Positions 17,906-24,050 of a stretch of 64,000 nt of DNA are shown here, piece after piece (position 1 is the stretch's first letter; every line of letters starts with the position of its first letter). A model generated the notes under the pieces. The model saw nothing but the letters and a program-made list of their open reading frames with translations, ran no database searches and was not told the DNA's origin. This stretch comes from a bacterium. Its GTDB lineage: Bacteria; CLD3; SB21. Made by a program: the position numbers and the translations under genes. The stretch is taken from NCBI GenBank assembly GCA_013360215.1, contig JABWCP010000007.1, positions 1 through 64,000 on the forward strand, given 5' to 3'.

Positions 17906-20281
17906 TTAAAACAAGCGCGCCATGCTCATCCCAAGATAAAAGTTCTTTTTATCCAAACGTTGTGCGGCATCTATGCGGAATAAACCGAATAAGCCGTTGA
18001 TTGAAGCGCCGACTTCCTGATGCCAACGCGTCGTATAAACCGGTGCATAGCCCAATCCTGCTAAACGATTTTTATCAATCCATGTGCGGCCGGCTGATCC
18101 GAAAACGGCGATCCCTATATTTTTACGAGCAAACCAATCCAATCCTATCAATTCAAACGGTAGTGAGCGAAAATTATGTTCCGCAAAAACAGCAGCGTAT
18201 TTTTCACCTTCGTATCCGCGTGTGCGTAATGTTTTGAACGTACCAAATGGGGTAAAATATCCGAGCGACCCGTCAACCACACCAAACCGTTGAACGGGAA
18301 GTTTGCCGGTGTAGGTACCTGCGGTAGCATATACATCCAGCGTATTGGGGATGAAACGGCGGCGGAGAAACGTTTTAATGCGTGCGTTTCCGGAAACTTT
18401 ATACGTAGTAAAACCGAAATCACTGGAGAGTATTTTTTTATCCGAATGTTCGATGGAGAGCGTAAGTCCGTTGTTTCCGACTACGCCCATGGGCACATAT
18501 TTTTCACCCCAGGTACCTGTAAAAATAAAACTGCGCAGTGTGCCGTTATCAATGGCAGGATTTTTTCGTTGATCGTATTTCCGTCCGATGATGTCCCAAT
18601 CCGTGGTTTTGGAAACGGATTTTTGGAAATCCTGCAGTAATCCTGCAGAAAAATCCAAATCCTGAAAAGCAAAATTGTAACCACCGGTGACTTTGACGCG
18701 GTGTGACTTGTAGTAATCAAAATAATCGCGATATCCGAAGAGCGGTTGCCCGCTGGTCATCAGGAGATTATAGTTTTCCGAGTTTTGGCGCATATCTACA
18801 CCGTTATAATATTCGGCTTCGAGGTGACCGCGGCGGCGATAACCAAAGCGGTGTTCACCACCGGCGCCATAGAACGCTTTTTCCAATGTTGTCGTATAGC
18901 CGCCTTTGATGTATGCCGACCAATGTTTGGAAAATTCATGTTCGTATTTCACGCCAAGCCGTCCGCCTTCGACACGATCAAAACCGACAACGGGTGAAAG
19001 ATCGCTAAGGAATTTTTGGAACGCTGTTTTTTTCTTTTTCTCCGTATCCACGCTGTCATTGTAATCATCTTCCATTTTGACGTATCGCGCCAACGCACCT
19101 TTGGGTTTGAATGCTTTGGTGAAGGAGTCCCCGCGTTTGATATTGGTGAATGCTGAATCTTCCGCTTCGGTACGGGGAATAATAATAGCGGAGGAATCAA
19201 ATTGATTGGGTTTTGCCAACGCGACGGAATCTACAAAAAAAGATTTACGCGATTTGTAGAGTGAATCCGGTAATTCGATGTTGATCTGATAATTATTAAC
19301 GCCCATCAGGCTGCTGTATATGATTTTTGGAAATTCCAAACCGGGCATTGCGACTTTAATATTGCCGTGCATACGAATATCCACCGGTAACCAGTAGGCT
19401 TGACCGAAATTGGAGAATTGCTGTTTATAGTTTACATTCCATTGCTGAATGGGGATAGGAAAAATCACATGCTCCGTCGGTTTGAGATCTACGGCTACCA
19501 TCGCAGAGTCTTCCTCGATAACGGAAATACTGCCGACGAAGGTAGGTTGTAATTTAGTTTTGGAACGTACGGCAATGTCGTAAACAAGATAATCGTCCAG
19601 ATAGCGACGTCCGGTGATTTTGAAATCATAGTAGTCCAATGCATCGGGGTGCGTAGGTCCGACAAAACGCGATCCTTGGATTTCGATATCATCGTCATAA
19701 AAATTAACCATGCCTTCTTCGCCCACGAAAATATTATCCTGCGGTCGGACGTTTTTGGTCATACGTTTGGATTTGATGACAACTTTGAGTCCTTTGTCTC
19801 TGTCCCAGTAGGTATCGGCTAAAGATTCGGAAATCATCACGATACCTGAATCGTTTTCCATGACCATCCTATTATACCCGTCGGCTTTAAAATTATTGAT
19901 CAGTTTATGCCAGCGTTTTTTCTTGGCGATGACATTGCGCATGATACGAATGCCGGGATCTTCCCCGATGACGACCATTTCCTCCATCTGAACCGAGGAG
20001 GGTGTCAGGCTGATGTTTTGTTCGGTAGGGCTGTTTTCCGTAATGACTAATTTTTGAGACTCATAACCGATATAACGTACGACGATCGTAGCAGGTAGGG
20101 ATTCGATCCGCAATGCGTATCGTCCTTCGACACTGGCGACAACCCCGCGCAGCGTGCCCTCGATTTGTATATTGGCCGATGGTAAAGGTTCACCGTTACT
20201 TTTGTCGGTGATCGTTCCGGTGATATTTTTTTGTGCATAGGAAAAGGAACCCAACAGCAGAAGGAAAATCAATCTATACAT
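17906..20281 (-). CDS. DUF5686 outer-membrane protein with CarboxypepD-like domain
   Basis: 791 residues. A signal peptide (MYRLIFLLLLGSFSYAQ) precedes a carboxypeptidase-regulatory-like beta-sandwich (about 19-95: GTITDKSNGEPLPSANIQIEG), as in TonB-dependent systems. A large DUF5686 domain follows, ending in a predicted beta-barrel whose last residues are KNFYLGMSMARLF. The family is characteristic of Bacteroidota relatives and of unknown function; surface assembly or transport roles are guessed. It is preceded by a leader with a hairpin (20312-20342) and closed by a terminator. Confidence 0.88.
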   Translation of the reverse strand: MYRLIFLLLLGSFSYAQKNITGTITDKSNGEPLPSANIQIEGTLRGVVASVEGRYALRIESLPATIVVRYIGYESQKLVITENSPTEQNISLTPSSVQMEEMVVIGEDPGIRIMRNVIAKKKRWHKLINNFKADGYNRMVMENDSGIVMISESLADTYWDRDKGLKVVIKSKRMTKNVRPQDNIFVGEEGMVNFYDDDIEIQGSRFVGPTHPDALDYYDFKITGRRYLDDYLVYDIAVRSKTKLQPTFVGSISVIEEDSAMVAVDLKPTEHVIFPIPIQQWNVNYKQQFSNFGQAYWLPVDIRMHGNIKVAMPGLEFPKIIYSSLMGVNNYQINIELPDSLYKSRKSFFVDSVALAKPNQFDSSAIIIPRTEAEDSAFTNIKRGDSFTKAFKPKGALARYVKMEDDYNDSVDTEKKKKTAFQKFLSDLSPVVGFDRVEGGRLGVKYEHEFSKHWSAYIKGGYTTTLEKAFYGAGGEHRFGYRRRGHLEAEYYNGVDMRQNSENYNLLMTSGQPLFGYRDYFDYYKSHRVKVTGGYNFAFQDLDFSAGLLQDFQKSVSKTTDWDIIGRKYDQRKNPAIDNGTLRSFIFTGTWGEKYVPMGVVGNNGLTLSIEHSDKKILSSDFGFTTYKVSGNARIKTFLRRRFIPNTLDVYATAGTYTGKLPVQRFGVVDGSLGYFTPFGTFKTLRTRGYEGEKYAAVFAEHNFRSLPFELIGLDWFARKNIGIAVFGSAGRTWIDKNRLAGLGYAPVYTTRWHQEVGASINGLFGLFRIDAAQRLDKKNFYLGMSMARLF

Positions 20282-20419: not shown

Positions 20420-21679
20420 TTATTCCATCAAGCGATCACGTACCAAACCTTCGATATAACGTTGGACGGAAGAACTCGAAACCGAATTATCCACGCATTG
20501 TAAAGTGCGCTTGAGAACGGATTTGCTCAAGCCCTGACGACGCAGCATGGCGGAAAGAGCGGTTTCTTGGGCGGAACTTGAGCTTACGGTTCCGACGGTT
20601 TCAAGAAAAGTAAACCAAATCATATCATCGTTAGGGCAGACTTCTGCGCTACGGCTTAGCACACGCGCTTGTGCGCTGGACGAACTGACCGATTCGGTTA
20701 CTTTAAAAAGCTGAATCCACGCGTCGCGAGTAAGTGTGCGTTGTGTAAGCGCGAGTAACGCTTCGGATTGTGCGCTGGATGAACTTACCGCGCGTACGGC
20801 ATGCAGGTATGCCAAAAACGCTTCTTCATGCGGAGGCGCTAATTCGGCAAGCGTTTCCAATGCATTTTTTTGCGCCGAACTGGAGCTGATATCTTCGATC
20901 GTGCGGGCCATCTCGATAGCCGATTCACGATCTAAGCCACGGCGGCGCGCTATCGTGATAGCTGTCTCACTTTGACGTGAACTGGAGGATATTTCCCGAA
21001 CGGCACGCATCAGCGTTAACGTAAAGGTTGAATCTTGCGGAAATTTAGTCGTGGCGTCCGTTAATAAATCACCGAGGCGCGAACTGCTTGAGATTTCTTT
21101 GGCCGTCACAATAACGGTGCGCTGAAGCTGAGCAGAGGTCAAATTTTCATGTGCCATAATGGACTCACAAAAAATCTGCCGCGCGTAATTATTTTCCTGA
21201 AATTCGATTTCATTGATTGCCGCATCAACGCCGCGCTGAGCGATAAGCCGCTGGACCCGACCCGCAGCGCCGAGTCCTGTTTTTCGTGCAATTTCAGGCA
21301 ACTCGGCAGCGAGCCATGATTGGCCGTATTCATTCCAATCCATCTCGCGGCCATTAGCATAAAAAGTTCTTTCCAACTGACCGTCACGTAACCCGCGAAC
21401 CCGGACTTCGCGATACGTAAACCAATTGCGGGTTTTGATCTGTACCGTAGCATTTTCTGCTAGAAATTTGAAATCACGGTCATCATCGGATAATTCGACC
21501 ACACCGATAGCTTTGACCTCAAGACTGTGCAGCATGTCATTGTAATAAGCATCAATATGGTTGAGGCGGCTATTATTGTTTTGAACAAAACCGATATGGA
21601 AATTGTTCTGTGCTGTCAATTGCGAATTTTGAATTAGAGAAAAGAAACTTACTATTAAAAGGGTAATAAATGTTTTCAT
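20420..21679 (-). CDS. Exported alpha-repeat protein with seven SSSS motifs
   Basis: 419 residues. A signal peptide (residues 1-24, ending LTAQ) precedes an N-terminal domain (about 40-150) with VELSDDDRDFKFL and ANGREMDWNEYGQSWLAAELP. This resembles the domain found before the ISSDYEK-type helical repeats of some peptidase M56-linked and stand-alone bacterial proteins. From residue 195 seven units of 33-35 residues each begin (E/D/x)(I/V)SSSS(A/R)Q. A preceding degenerate unit (EIEFQENNYARQIF) keeps the Tyr/Arg form. The repeats should form a helical solenoid. The function is unknown; it is probably periplasmic or on the surface. Confidence 0.85.
   Translation of the reverse strand: MKTFITLLIVSFFSLIQNSQLTAQNNFHIGFVQNNNSRLNHIDAYYNDMLHSLEVKAIGVVELSDDDRDFKFLAENATVQIKTRNWFTYREVRVRGLRDGQLERTFYANGREMDWNEYGQSWLAAELPEIARKTGLGAAGRVQRLIAQRGVDAAINEIEFQENNYARQIFCESIMAHENLTSAQLQRTVIVTAKEISSSSRLGDLLTDATTKFPQDSTFTLTLMRAVREISSSSRQSETAITIARRRGLDRESAIEMARTIEDISSSSAQKNALETLAELAPPHEEAFLAYLHAVRAVSSSSAQSEALLALTQRTLTRDAWIQLFKVTESVSSSSAQARVLSRSAEVCPNDDMIWFTFLETVGTVSSSSAQETALSAMLRRQGLSKSVLKRTLQCVDNSVSSSSVQRYIEGLVRDRLME
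20423..21097 (-). repeat. Seven tandem coding repeats of about 34 residues, each with SSSS
   Basis: SSSS tracts fall at residues 197-200, 231-234, 265-268, 299-302, 332-335, 366-369 and 401-404 of the 419-residue protein. The four serine codons differ from unit to unit and mix AGY with TCN, for example TCA AGC AGT TCG in unit 1 and AGC TCA AGT TCC in unit 6, so the tracts are kept at protein level rather than by DNA slippage. Confidence 0.95.
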
Positions 21680-21762: not shown

Positions 21763-22437
21763 TTAATGATCGGCTTCTGGTGCAGATCGTTTATTCATCC
21801 GAATTGCGATTCCTATCATGCGTACGTGAATAGCTATCATGAACAAGCCACAAAACGGTCCGACATCAAATAATCCCATTTCCGAAGGAGGCCACGGAAA
21901 TGTTGCGGCGTTCAACACGATCAGCAGAATGGCCAACAACCCAAAGGGCAATGTCCAAATCCAGCCGAAATAGGGATGACGTCGCATCACTATAGCGTAA
22001 CATAAAAAACTTGTACCGATGAACATATCCCATACTACATCGAGGCCCATGTCGATCAGTCGTACCGCACGTTGGACAAGTCGGGAAGTATTTGGATCTA
22101 CGGACAGTTCTTTGATAAACGAATCTTCAAATCCGGCCTGAATAGCAATTTGTGCCGCTAGAAAGACAGCTAATACCAAAAAGGCCAATGCGCCCATATA
22201 AAACCCAATTACCGAGAGATGGTCGTCCATGTCTCCTTTAAGGAGAATATGTAAAGCGTACCAACTTATGATTCCTAAAATTGAGAATAACATCACACCG
22301 ACAAAGGTCAGTGCCGGGTTTAGCGAAACGGTAATGATACACAAATAGGATATAACCGACAGGACACCCGCAATGCCGCCGTAAAGAAAAAGTTTTTTGA
22401 ATTGAGAATACACGCGATGATCCATGATTAAGTTCAT
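21763..22437 (-). CDS. Multi-pass membrane protein (DUF4386-like)
   Basis: 224 residues from the start chosen here. Six hydrophobic segments are visible, including YGGIAGVLSVISYLCII, MLFSILGIISWYALHIL, MGALAFLVLAVFLAAQIAI and PFGLLAILLIVLNAATF. The hydropathy and length suit the DUF4386 membrane family, but the match is by eye. An ATG at 22422 (MDHRVYSQ) or an upstream one at 22488 are alternatives; the latter would overlap the preceding gene by 35 bases. The gene lies just behind the DUF6249 gene and so probably under the same ECF-type promoter. Confidence 0.7.
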   Translation of the reverse strand: MNLIMDHRVYSQFKKLFLYGGIAGVLSVISYLCIITVSLNPALTFVGVMLFSILGIISWYALHILLKGDMDDHLSVIGFYMGALAFLVLAVFLAAQIAIQAGFEDSFIKELSVDPNTSRLVQRAVRLIDMGLDVVWDMFIGTSFLCYAIVMRRHPYFGWIWTLPFGLLAILLIVLNAATFPWPPSEMGLFDVGPFCGLFMIAIHVRMIGIAIRMNKRSAPEADH

Positions 22438-22453
22438 TCCTATGTTTTTCTTA

Positions 22454-22789
22454 TTATTCTTGTGGTGTTTGTTTTTTAGCAAGGACATAATAGATCACGA
22501 AAGCGATACCGGCGAAAATAAACATCAGACCCATCAGCGCGGGGCCTTCCATCATCGGGAAAATCTGGCCGATGGCCAATGCAATACCGATACCGACAAG
22601 AACAATGCCCCATTTGAGCGATTGCAGCGGGTTTTCTCGGAGATCACGGGCATAAAGATATTTTACTTTTTCATCGACTAGCCCTTTGTCTATCAGTTTT
22701 TGGCGCGTACGATTGTCCGTGACGATTTTTACGATCATGGCAACCATCCAAAAAAATGCGATAGGAATGATGAATTCGAGGTTTTGCAT
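22454..22789 (-). CDS. DUF6249 small membrane protein
   Basis: 111 residues. One N-terminal membrane helix (FIIPIAFFWMVAMIVKIV) precedes a charged stretch (DNRTRQKLIDKGLVDEKV), and two further helices close the protein. This arrangement, membrane helix then RxKLIxKG segment, is the DUF6249 pattern, whose members often lie beside ECF sigma/anti-sigma genes in Bacteroidota-like genomes. AAGGAACC precedes the start. The divergent sigma factor gene and the shared promoter motif suggest it belongs to that regulon. Confidence 0.8.
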   Translation of the reverse strand: MQNLEFIIPIAFFWMVAMIVKIVTDNRTRQKLIDKGLVDEKVKYLYARDLRENPLQSLKWGIVLVGIGIALAIGQIFPMMEGPALMGLMFIFAGIAFVIYYVLAKKQTPQE

Positions 22790-22847: not shown

Positions 22848-22876
22848 ATAAGACCGGTCAAAAAGCAAAAGGTTGC
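22848..22876 (-). promoter_or_regulatory. ECF-type promoter of the DUF6249 gene
   Basis: On the minus strand GCAAC (22872-22876) and GGTCTTAT (22848-22855) are 16 bases apart. AAC in the -35 and GTC in the -10 are hallmarks of ECF sigma promoters. The same motif at the same spacing is found divergently at 22900-22928. Confidence 0.6.
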
Positions 22877-22899
22877 ACTTGTTAGCTAATTATTTTATT

Positions 22900-22928
22900 G
22901 CAACATTTGTTCGCTTCGTCGGTCTAAT
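22900..22928 (+). promoter_or_regulatory. ECF-type autoregulated promoter of the sigma factor gene
   Basis: GCAAC (22900-22904) and GGTCTAAT (22921-22928) are 16 bases apart, upstream of the sigma factor start at 22951. It matches the divergent promoter at 22848-22876 in both elements and spacing. Confidence 0.6.
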
Positions 22929-22950
22929 ACCCTGTATGATAAGACCATTT

Positions 22951-23553
22951 ATGGAAAATGAGCGCTTAACTATAGAAAAAATAATTGCCGGCGATGCTAA
23001 GGCATTTAAGCAGTTAGTCGAAGACCACCAAAAATTGGTCGCGCATATCGTATTTAAAATGGTATCCAATCCATCCGATCAACAGGAGATTTGTCAGGAA
23101 GTTTTTATCAAAGTGTATGAAAATCTCCGGACCTTTCAGTTTAATGCTAAACTTTCGACATGGATTGCCCGCATCGCTTATAATACGACGCTAAATCACA
23201 TCGCGAAGAAAAAAACGCCGCTGTATGAAGATTATCTAACCTCGCCGACGGAGGAAGAAAATTACGAATCGGCCGATCAGAATCTTTCGGAAAGCCTGTG
23301 GGACGAACCCGACATGCCGGATGCCGTAACACAAAACCGGGAAACAGCGAGAGTTTTAAAAGAAGCGATCCAATCATTAGCGCCGCAGTATCGGACCATC
23401 GTAACGCTTTTTCATATGGACGACATGTCGTATGTGGAAATCAGTGAAATCATGCAGATGCCGGAGGGTACGGTAAAAAGTTACCTTTTCCGGGCGCGCA
23501 AAATGCTCAAAGCGCGGTTACTTGAAAATTTTAGTACGGAGGAATTAATATGA
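22951..23553 (+). CDS. ECF-type RNA polymerase sigma factor
   Basis: 200 residues with sigma-70 region 2 (AFKQLVEDHQKLVAHIVFKMV, then DQQEICQEVFIKVYENL and the STWIARIAYNTTLNHI stretch) and region 4 (YRTIVTLFHMDDMSYVEISEIMQ, EGTVKSYLFRARKML). The start at 22951 is preferred because longer in-frame forms begin inside the promoter region; ATG 22936 is possible. It overlaps the anti-sigma gene by four bases. A sequence matching an ECF promoter lies just upstream, so autoregulation is likely. Confidence 0.93.
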   Translation: MENERLTIEKIIAGDAKAFKQLVEDHQKLVAHIVFKMVSNPSDQQEICQEVFIKVYENLRTFQFNAKLSTWIARIAYNTTLNHIAKKKTPLYEDYLTSPTEEENYESADQNLSESLWDEPDMPDAVTQNRETARVLKEAIQSLAPQYRTIVTLFHMDDMSYVEISEIMQMPEGTVKSYLFRARKMLKARLLENFSTEELI

Positions 23554-24050
23554 ATCATCTCAGTGATGCGATGATGCAGGCGTATCTGGACGGGACCGCC
23601 GGTATAACCAAACAAAACATGGAAACGCATCTGTCGGTATGCGAGGAATGCCGCGAGTCTATGGCTATATATCGGATGATGCACCACACCATACGTCAGG
23701 AAGAATTTATATTACCGGCACATTTTGCGGATATAGTGGCGGAAAAAGTGGGTTTGGTTTCCGCTGATGAGTCGGAAACATCTGTTTTACGTGAGTGGTG
23801 GTGGCTGTTGCCGGTCGTCGTAGCGGGCATCGGCATCTCCGCGTATTATTTGCCTTCTACGATGACCGGAGCACCGGTAGAGCGCGTTTTACAGGAAAAT
23901 ATCCGGCAGACGCAAACTTATTTTACGATAGCTGAACAAATGGGCGGTTGGATCGGTTCCAATTTTCAGTATCTTATTTTTGGGTTATTTCTCGTATTGC
24001 TTTTTGATATGATCGAGCGGAAATTTTTGAGATTGAGGGTGCAGCACTAA
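23550..24050 (+). CDS. Membrane-bound anti-sigma factor with HxxxCxxC zinc motif
   Basis: 166 residues. The cytoplasmic N-terminus holds the ZAS/zf-HC2 motif HLSVCEEC (HxxxCxxC). A membrane helix follows (LLPVVVAGIGISAYYL, about 90-107) and a second hydrophobic segment lies near the C-terminus (YLIFGLFLVLLFDMI). Such proteins hold the ECF sigma factor at the membrane until a signal arrives. It overlaps the sigma gene by ATGA, and its end overlaps the convergent AraC gene by four bases. Confidence 0.88.
   Translation: MNHLSDAMMQAYLDGTAGITKQNMETHLSVCEECRESMAIYRMMHHTIRQEEFILPAHFADIVAEKVGLVSADESETSVLREWWWLLPVVVAGIGISAYYLPSTMTGAPVERVLQENIRQTQTYFTIAEQMGGWIGSNFQYLIFGLFLVLLFDMIERKFLRLRVQH

Follow-up and report, generated by a model that had tools for sequence, protein, structure and literature searches.

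A predicted secreted solenoid protein with seven conserved tetraserine corners, a candidate extracytoplasmic sensor from a family with one corner motif per protein

The receptor BlaR1 carries its sensor domain at the C-terminus, outside the cell (PMC9834060), and the same place is taken by helical repeats in a set of relatives fused to an M56 peptidase. These M56 sensor-transducers, whose C-terminal half is built of IxSDYE repeats, share with the protein described here a homologous β-domain, 34-residue repeats and the same serine capping the second helix (helix B) of the unit. For the sensor half of these BlaR1-like relatives we found no Pfam or NCBIfam model and no ligand. A repeated polar row on a solenoid is also known from the TPR superhelices of SPINDLY and OGT, in which an asparagine ladder binds substrate (PMC9715652).

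In this study we focus on a protein encoded in a stretch of 64,000 nucleotides of a bacterial contig (JABWCP010000007.1, assembly GCA_013360215.1, positions 1 to 64,000), referred to as the window. Unlike the M56-fused relatives, the window protein is stand-alone and predicted to be secreted, shows no match to PF05569 (M56), bears SSSS in place of SDYE, and has genes for an ECF sigma factor and a putative anti-sigma factor adjoining its own.

The gene, present as a single copy in its genome, appears in the list of open reading frames at 20420..21679 on the minus strand and encodes 419 residues; all parts of the protein mentioned below lie on that strand. A Sec-type signal peptide is read from the sequence at residues 1 to about 24 (MKTFITLLIVSFFSLIQNSQLTAQ, 21608..21679), together with the signal-like N-termini of the orthologues. 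The AF2 model, run with four sequences (mean pLDDT 88), contains a signal peptide-like helix of low confidence at residues 2-18, a β-domain at residues 36-113 (21341..21574), and helices over residues 117-418 (20426..21331), which are predicted with pLDDT mostly above 90 to form an α-solenoid. The model thus agrees with the helical-repeat solenoid expected in the preliminary description of this DNA, which was made from the letters alone. Foldseek retrieved only generic TPR/HAT superhelices for the protein, with a TMq of at most 0.32, and no match at E≤0.001 for the β-domain alone against the PDB. OGT is among these weak matches. The TPR/HAT solenoids of OGT and SPINDLY, like the solenoid predicted here, have one repeated polar row on a helical superhelix, theirs being used for binding (PMC9715652), but they have no detectable sequence kinship with the window protein, the TM-score is 0.32 at best, and in the family of the window protein the row lies at the start of helix B with a residue type specific to each protein. 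Sequence searches of Pfam, NCBIfam and the PDB with the window protein gave no family; there was no match to a penicillin-binding sensor domain in Pfam or NCBIfam, and none to a TPR profile.

Seven SSSS tracts are found at residues 197-200 (unit 1, 21080..21091, codons TCA AGC AGT TCG), 231-234 (unit 2, 20978..20989, TCC TCC AGT TCA), 265-268 (unit 3, 20876..20887, AGC TCC AGT TCG), 299-302 (unit 4, 20774..20785, AGT TCA TCC AGC), 332-335 (unit 5, 20675..20686, AGT TCG TCC AGC), 366-369 (unit 6, 20573..20584, AGC TCA AGT TCC) and 401-404 (unit 7, 20468..20479, TCG AGT TCT TCC). Their starts are spaced by 34, 34, 34, 33, 34 and 35 residues, and these positions confirm the seven in-register tracts with a 33-35 residue period that had been reported. 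Shuffling the protein 20,000 times gave a mean of 0.056 SSSS and at most 2, register being ignored. The preliminary description had assigned to every unit the start (I/V)SSSS(A/R)Q, of which SSSS holds in all seven and (A/R)Q does not hold in units 1 and 7, the two residues after the tract being RL, RQ, AQ, AQ, AQ, AQ and VQ in units 1 to 7. A degenerate eighth unit (unit 0) lies 34 residues upstream of unit 1; its corner reads QENNYA in the window protein (residues 161-166, 21182..21199), VNSNYA in two orthologues and VETNGA in one.

With AGY codons written A and TCN codons written T, the tracts of units 1 to 7 read TAAT, TTAT, ATAT, ATTA, ATTA, ATAT and TATT. These patterns bear out the earlier claim on the codon mix. 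Between orthologues the codon class agrees in 79% of comparisons of the same unit and in 56% of comparisons of different units, a result reached by none of 5000 permutations. Moreover, when the motif is left out, units match best the orthologue unit of the same number in 68 of 72 cases. Since the AGY/TCN mix differs by unit yet is inherited per unit, and the units are orthologous by position, the four serines are held at the protein level, as first proposed. The units of the window protein are old: they are 15-41% identical in amino acids and 19-45% in nucleotides, and a search over the SSSS region found no tandem DNA repeat.

Nine genomes of the class and phylum were searched, and SSSS-protein matches came from the genome of the window and from four others of its family. 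In a sixth genome (G002), the DUF6249 gene that lies upstream elsewhere is at the contig end, so that the contig probably stops short of the SSSS gene. The orthologues are 40-45% identical to the window protein and keep SSSS in units 2-6. Over units 1-6, the four serines are conserved at 100, 100, 100 and 92%, and the glutamine at +6 (positions being counted from the hydrophobic residue preceding SSSS) at 92%, whereas most other positions of the unit reach 25-80%; unit 7 reads SSRS or SSRA outside the window protein. Lack of conservation of the tract among orthologues had been named beforehand as grounds for rejecting the proposal; this objection fails, since no other part of the unit is conserved as well as the tract.

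SSSS is also carried by relatives of another phylum (G983 and G1153) at about 30% identity, the G983 protein matching the window protein in BLASTP at 29% identity and E 1e-32. These proteins share the β-domain and the SSSS solenoid, have no M56, and that of G983 has a signal peptide-like start. They differ in that Glu often follows SSSS, in two more units in G983, and in that no sigma gene was recognised nearby, in the case of G983 within a 9 kb contig stretch where one neighbour was scanned. An SSSS version fused to M56 is found in G209. SSSS may have arisen once or more often: a single clade of the window group with L023/L052 is not rejected (AU p 0.65) in a weak tree of 145 columns.

At the structural level, DSSP applied to the model places the beginning of helix B at Ser3 in units 2-7 and after the tract in unit 1. 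Ser2 is therefore the predicted N-cap, with Ser3 at N1 and Ser4 at N2, and since Ser2 caps helix B in six of the seven units, the tetraserine would link helix A to helix B as a turn and continue into the opening turn of helix B. On a helical wheel, +4, +5 and +8 are turned 116-178 degrees away from the hydrophobic side of helix B, whereas +3 and +6 face that side. Eight units, each of two helices and about 34 residues, would stack so that the corners are aligned in a single row on the edge of the solenoid, with +4 predicted to point outward.

Both in the window and at the loci of the orthologues, a gene for a DUF6249 membrane protein (22454..22789, minus strand; PF19762, 7.5e-16) lies upstream of the SSSS gene, which faces a divergent ECF sigma factor gene (22873..23553, plus strand; PF08281 and PF04542), which overlaps a gene for a putative membrane-anchored zf-HC2 anti-sigma factor (23550..24050, plus strand; PF13490 at 3.1e-4, just under the gathering score). 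A gene for an outer-membrane-type DUF5686/CarboxypepD_reg protein lies downstream (17906..20281, minus strand), as it does in the orthologue loci that reach far enough. A literature search on DUF6249, or on proteins of Gemmatimonadetes resembling BlaR1, turned up nothing of use. Between the DUF6249 and SSSS genes, the window also contains a gene for a 241-residue membrane protein with no Pfam match (21763-22488), which is missing from orthologue loci L008, L095, L096 and L097. In L008, the SSSS gene is separated from the DUF5686 gene by genes for an ABC ATPase and for a large protein that resembles an ABC permease and has an M1-peptidase-like part (L008:11194-15733, functions read from the sequence).

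The homologous β-domain followed by the repeats occurs in at least four phylum-level groups, three of them beyond that of the window; viral and plasmid collections yielded no relatives, and no Pfam or NCBIfam model covers the family. Its members usually sit behind a BlaR1-type M56 peptidase in one fused protein, and several of the M56-fused genes directly adjoin a Penicillinase_R (BlaI) gene. The window protein has the homologous β-domain, helical units of 34 residues in which Ser at +2 follows a hydrophobic residue, and a corner motif that is uniform within the protein, with SSSS where the literal SDYE is absent. Sequence searches recovered the kinship with ISSDYE-type repeats behind a similar N-terminal domain that had been stated beforehand, and SSSS is indeed a distinct variant, the corners of other members reading SDYE, SDFE, SDHE, SDHY, SDGD and others. 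In another phylum-level group, a stand-alone, probably secreted SDFE relative (G887; L121:4771-7151), with a signal-peptide-like start, is encoded downstream of an ECF sigma gene. Taken together, the M56 fusions and BlaI neighbours of the relatives and the sigma neighbours here and in G887 put the same module where M56/BlaI systems have their sensor and also beside sigma systems.

The uniformity of the corner goes beyond what the preliminary description had seen, holds as a rule throughout the family, and is the more interesting result. In 253 units of 37 proteins, the residue is most strongly tied to the protein, by mutual information, at +1, +3, +4 and +5 (z 21, 20, 31 and 22), with z below 10 at all other positions; +2 is uninformative, as the unit filter imposes Ser there. 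At +4, 75% of unit pairs within a protein are identical against 16% between proteins (36 proteins). Where motif residues are identical, the same-codon rate between units is 0.523, against 0.493 expected from the codon usage of the protein, so between-unit codons are near random and conversion is not the general cause of the uniformity. Furthermore, the units of L030, L051 and L049 are orthologous by position (Z 3.5-4.1) and 45-51% identical outside the motif but 0-20% at +4, where every unit of L030 has Y, every unit of L051 has H, and 7 of the 10 units of L049 have F. Positionally orthologous units with differing +4 imply that the residue changed in step across many units. Mixed or alternating proteins exist as well: L029, which belongs to the same set, reads HHYHFHFHFHF at +4; L076 has blocks, YFFFFYYY.

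We favour the possibility that the window protein is an extracytoplasmic sensor, periplasmic or on the surface, whose corner row serves as one ligand-binding strip feeding signalling, a tentative reading to which we give a probability of about 0.42. The row would bind a ligand with a matching repeat, such as an extended peptide or an envelope polymer, so that each corner makes the same contact, and protein-level selection would keep each protein's own motif alike in most units, even through changes. Many relatives could signal binding through BlaI and the M56 peptidase of BlaR1 type to which they are fused; for the window protein, the gene order suggests the adjacent ECF sigma/anti-sigma pair as the route. 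The mixed or alternating proteins such as L029 count against this reading, as does the G983 SSSS gene, beside which no sigma gene was recognised in the stretch covered. It is the occurrence of the module at sensor places, together with the known precedent of a polar row that binds, that makes a ligand-binding strip the favoured explanation.

Corners might also be alike because neighbouring ones touch directly or through water and must match for packing, with no ligand involved. Agreement at +4 is indeed higher between adjacent units than between units further apart (0.80 vs 0.73, p 0.01), and likewise at +5 (0.72 vs 0.59, p<0.001), which fits such direct contact, and the block pattern of L076 also speaks for contact. 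However, the effect of adjacency is small and probably comes in part from end units, and neighbouring corners of α-solenoids are expected to lie roughly 10 Å apart, a gap that the short side chains of Ser and Gly would not span; we consider this account possible but unlikely. Less likely again is slow inheritance, in which a single ancestral unit gave rise to all units of a protein by amplification, and purifying selection for helix capping kept the corner while the rest diverged, without any coupling. Taken alone, the SSSS clade fits it, given the positional best matches between orthologues and an age of the tract sufficient to span two phylum-level groups; but Y, H or F at +4 across nearly all of the orthologous units of L030, L051 and L049 means that the switch came after amplification and took in many units, and the SNY of unit 0 in two orthologue sequences suggests a change from an SDY-like ancestor. 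The strip could instead pair with the same strip of another molecule, differing motifs keeping paralogues apart, as the neighbouring paralogue genes with different motifs in G462 (SDHE and SDGD) and G541 (SDSD/SDRE and SDGD) would allow; two paralogues sharing SDGD in G596 count against such self-association, which we hold to be quite improbable.

Four adjacent serines, seven times over and strongly conserved, had also suggested a ladder of phosphorylation or O-glycosylation sites. Such a free serine tract is not favoured and appears very improbable, given that the protein is predicted to be secreted, that six of the seven tracts are predicted to form the N-cap and first turn of helix B and not a flexible linker, and that in relatives this slot is taken by D, Y, F, H or G. 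As for slippage or gene conversion between repeats equalising the tracts, shared codons between units are in excess in a few relatives (L076, 0.77 vs 0.55; L034, 0.73 vs 0.47). In the window protein, however, the same-codon rate is 0.16 against 0.19 expected, and the unit-specific AGY/TCN patterns, inherited per unit, and the absence of a tandem DNA repeat in the region searched argue the same way; the codon data rule out a DNA-level artefact there, and we leave it practically no weight as an explanation. The earlier interpretation as a whole, which had allowed for modification or ligand binding, is thus partly supported.

On a wider view, which we regard as doubtful, the family would consist of programmable extracytoplasmic receptors, in which the uniform motif sets the specificity for a periodic ligand, can switch in concert with no conversion at the DNA level, and is coupled either to BlaR1/BlaI proteolysis or to an ECF sigma factor, SSSS being one class among them. 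The corner residues would then be the likeliest determinants of specificity in the sensor half, and one motif per protein could serve as a rule for sorting its members. The family also provides a clear case in which selection has shifted numerous codons together, and could serve as a test bed for coupling between repeats.

As to the origin of the tetraserine, we considered whether its codons could be fossils of an earlier motif, with Ser3 derived from Asp via Asn (giving AGY) and Ser4 from Tyr (giving TCN). This idea was set aside, as it fits only partly: AGY is found in 15 of 25 cases at position 3 and in 4 of 26 at position 4. An M56-fused relative (L120:4509-7148) has SNYD units beside SSYD units, intermediate between Asp and Ser at +3; its SNY and SSY units show that intermediate residues exist, but both SSY units use TCG. 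Finally, a two-unit superperiod is seen in two relatives, L029 alternating H and F at +4 and L006 alternating L and R/H at +6.
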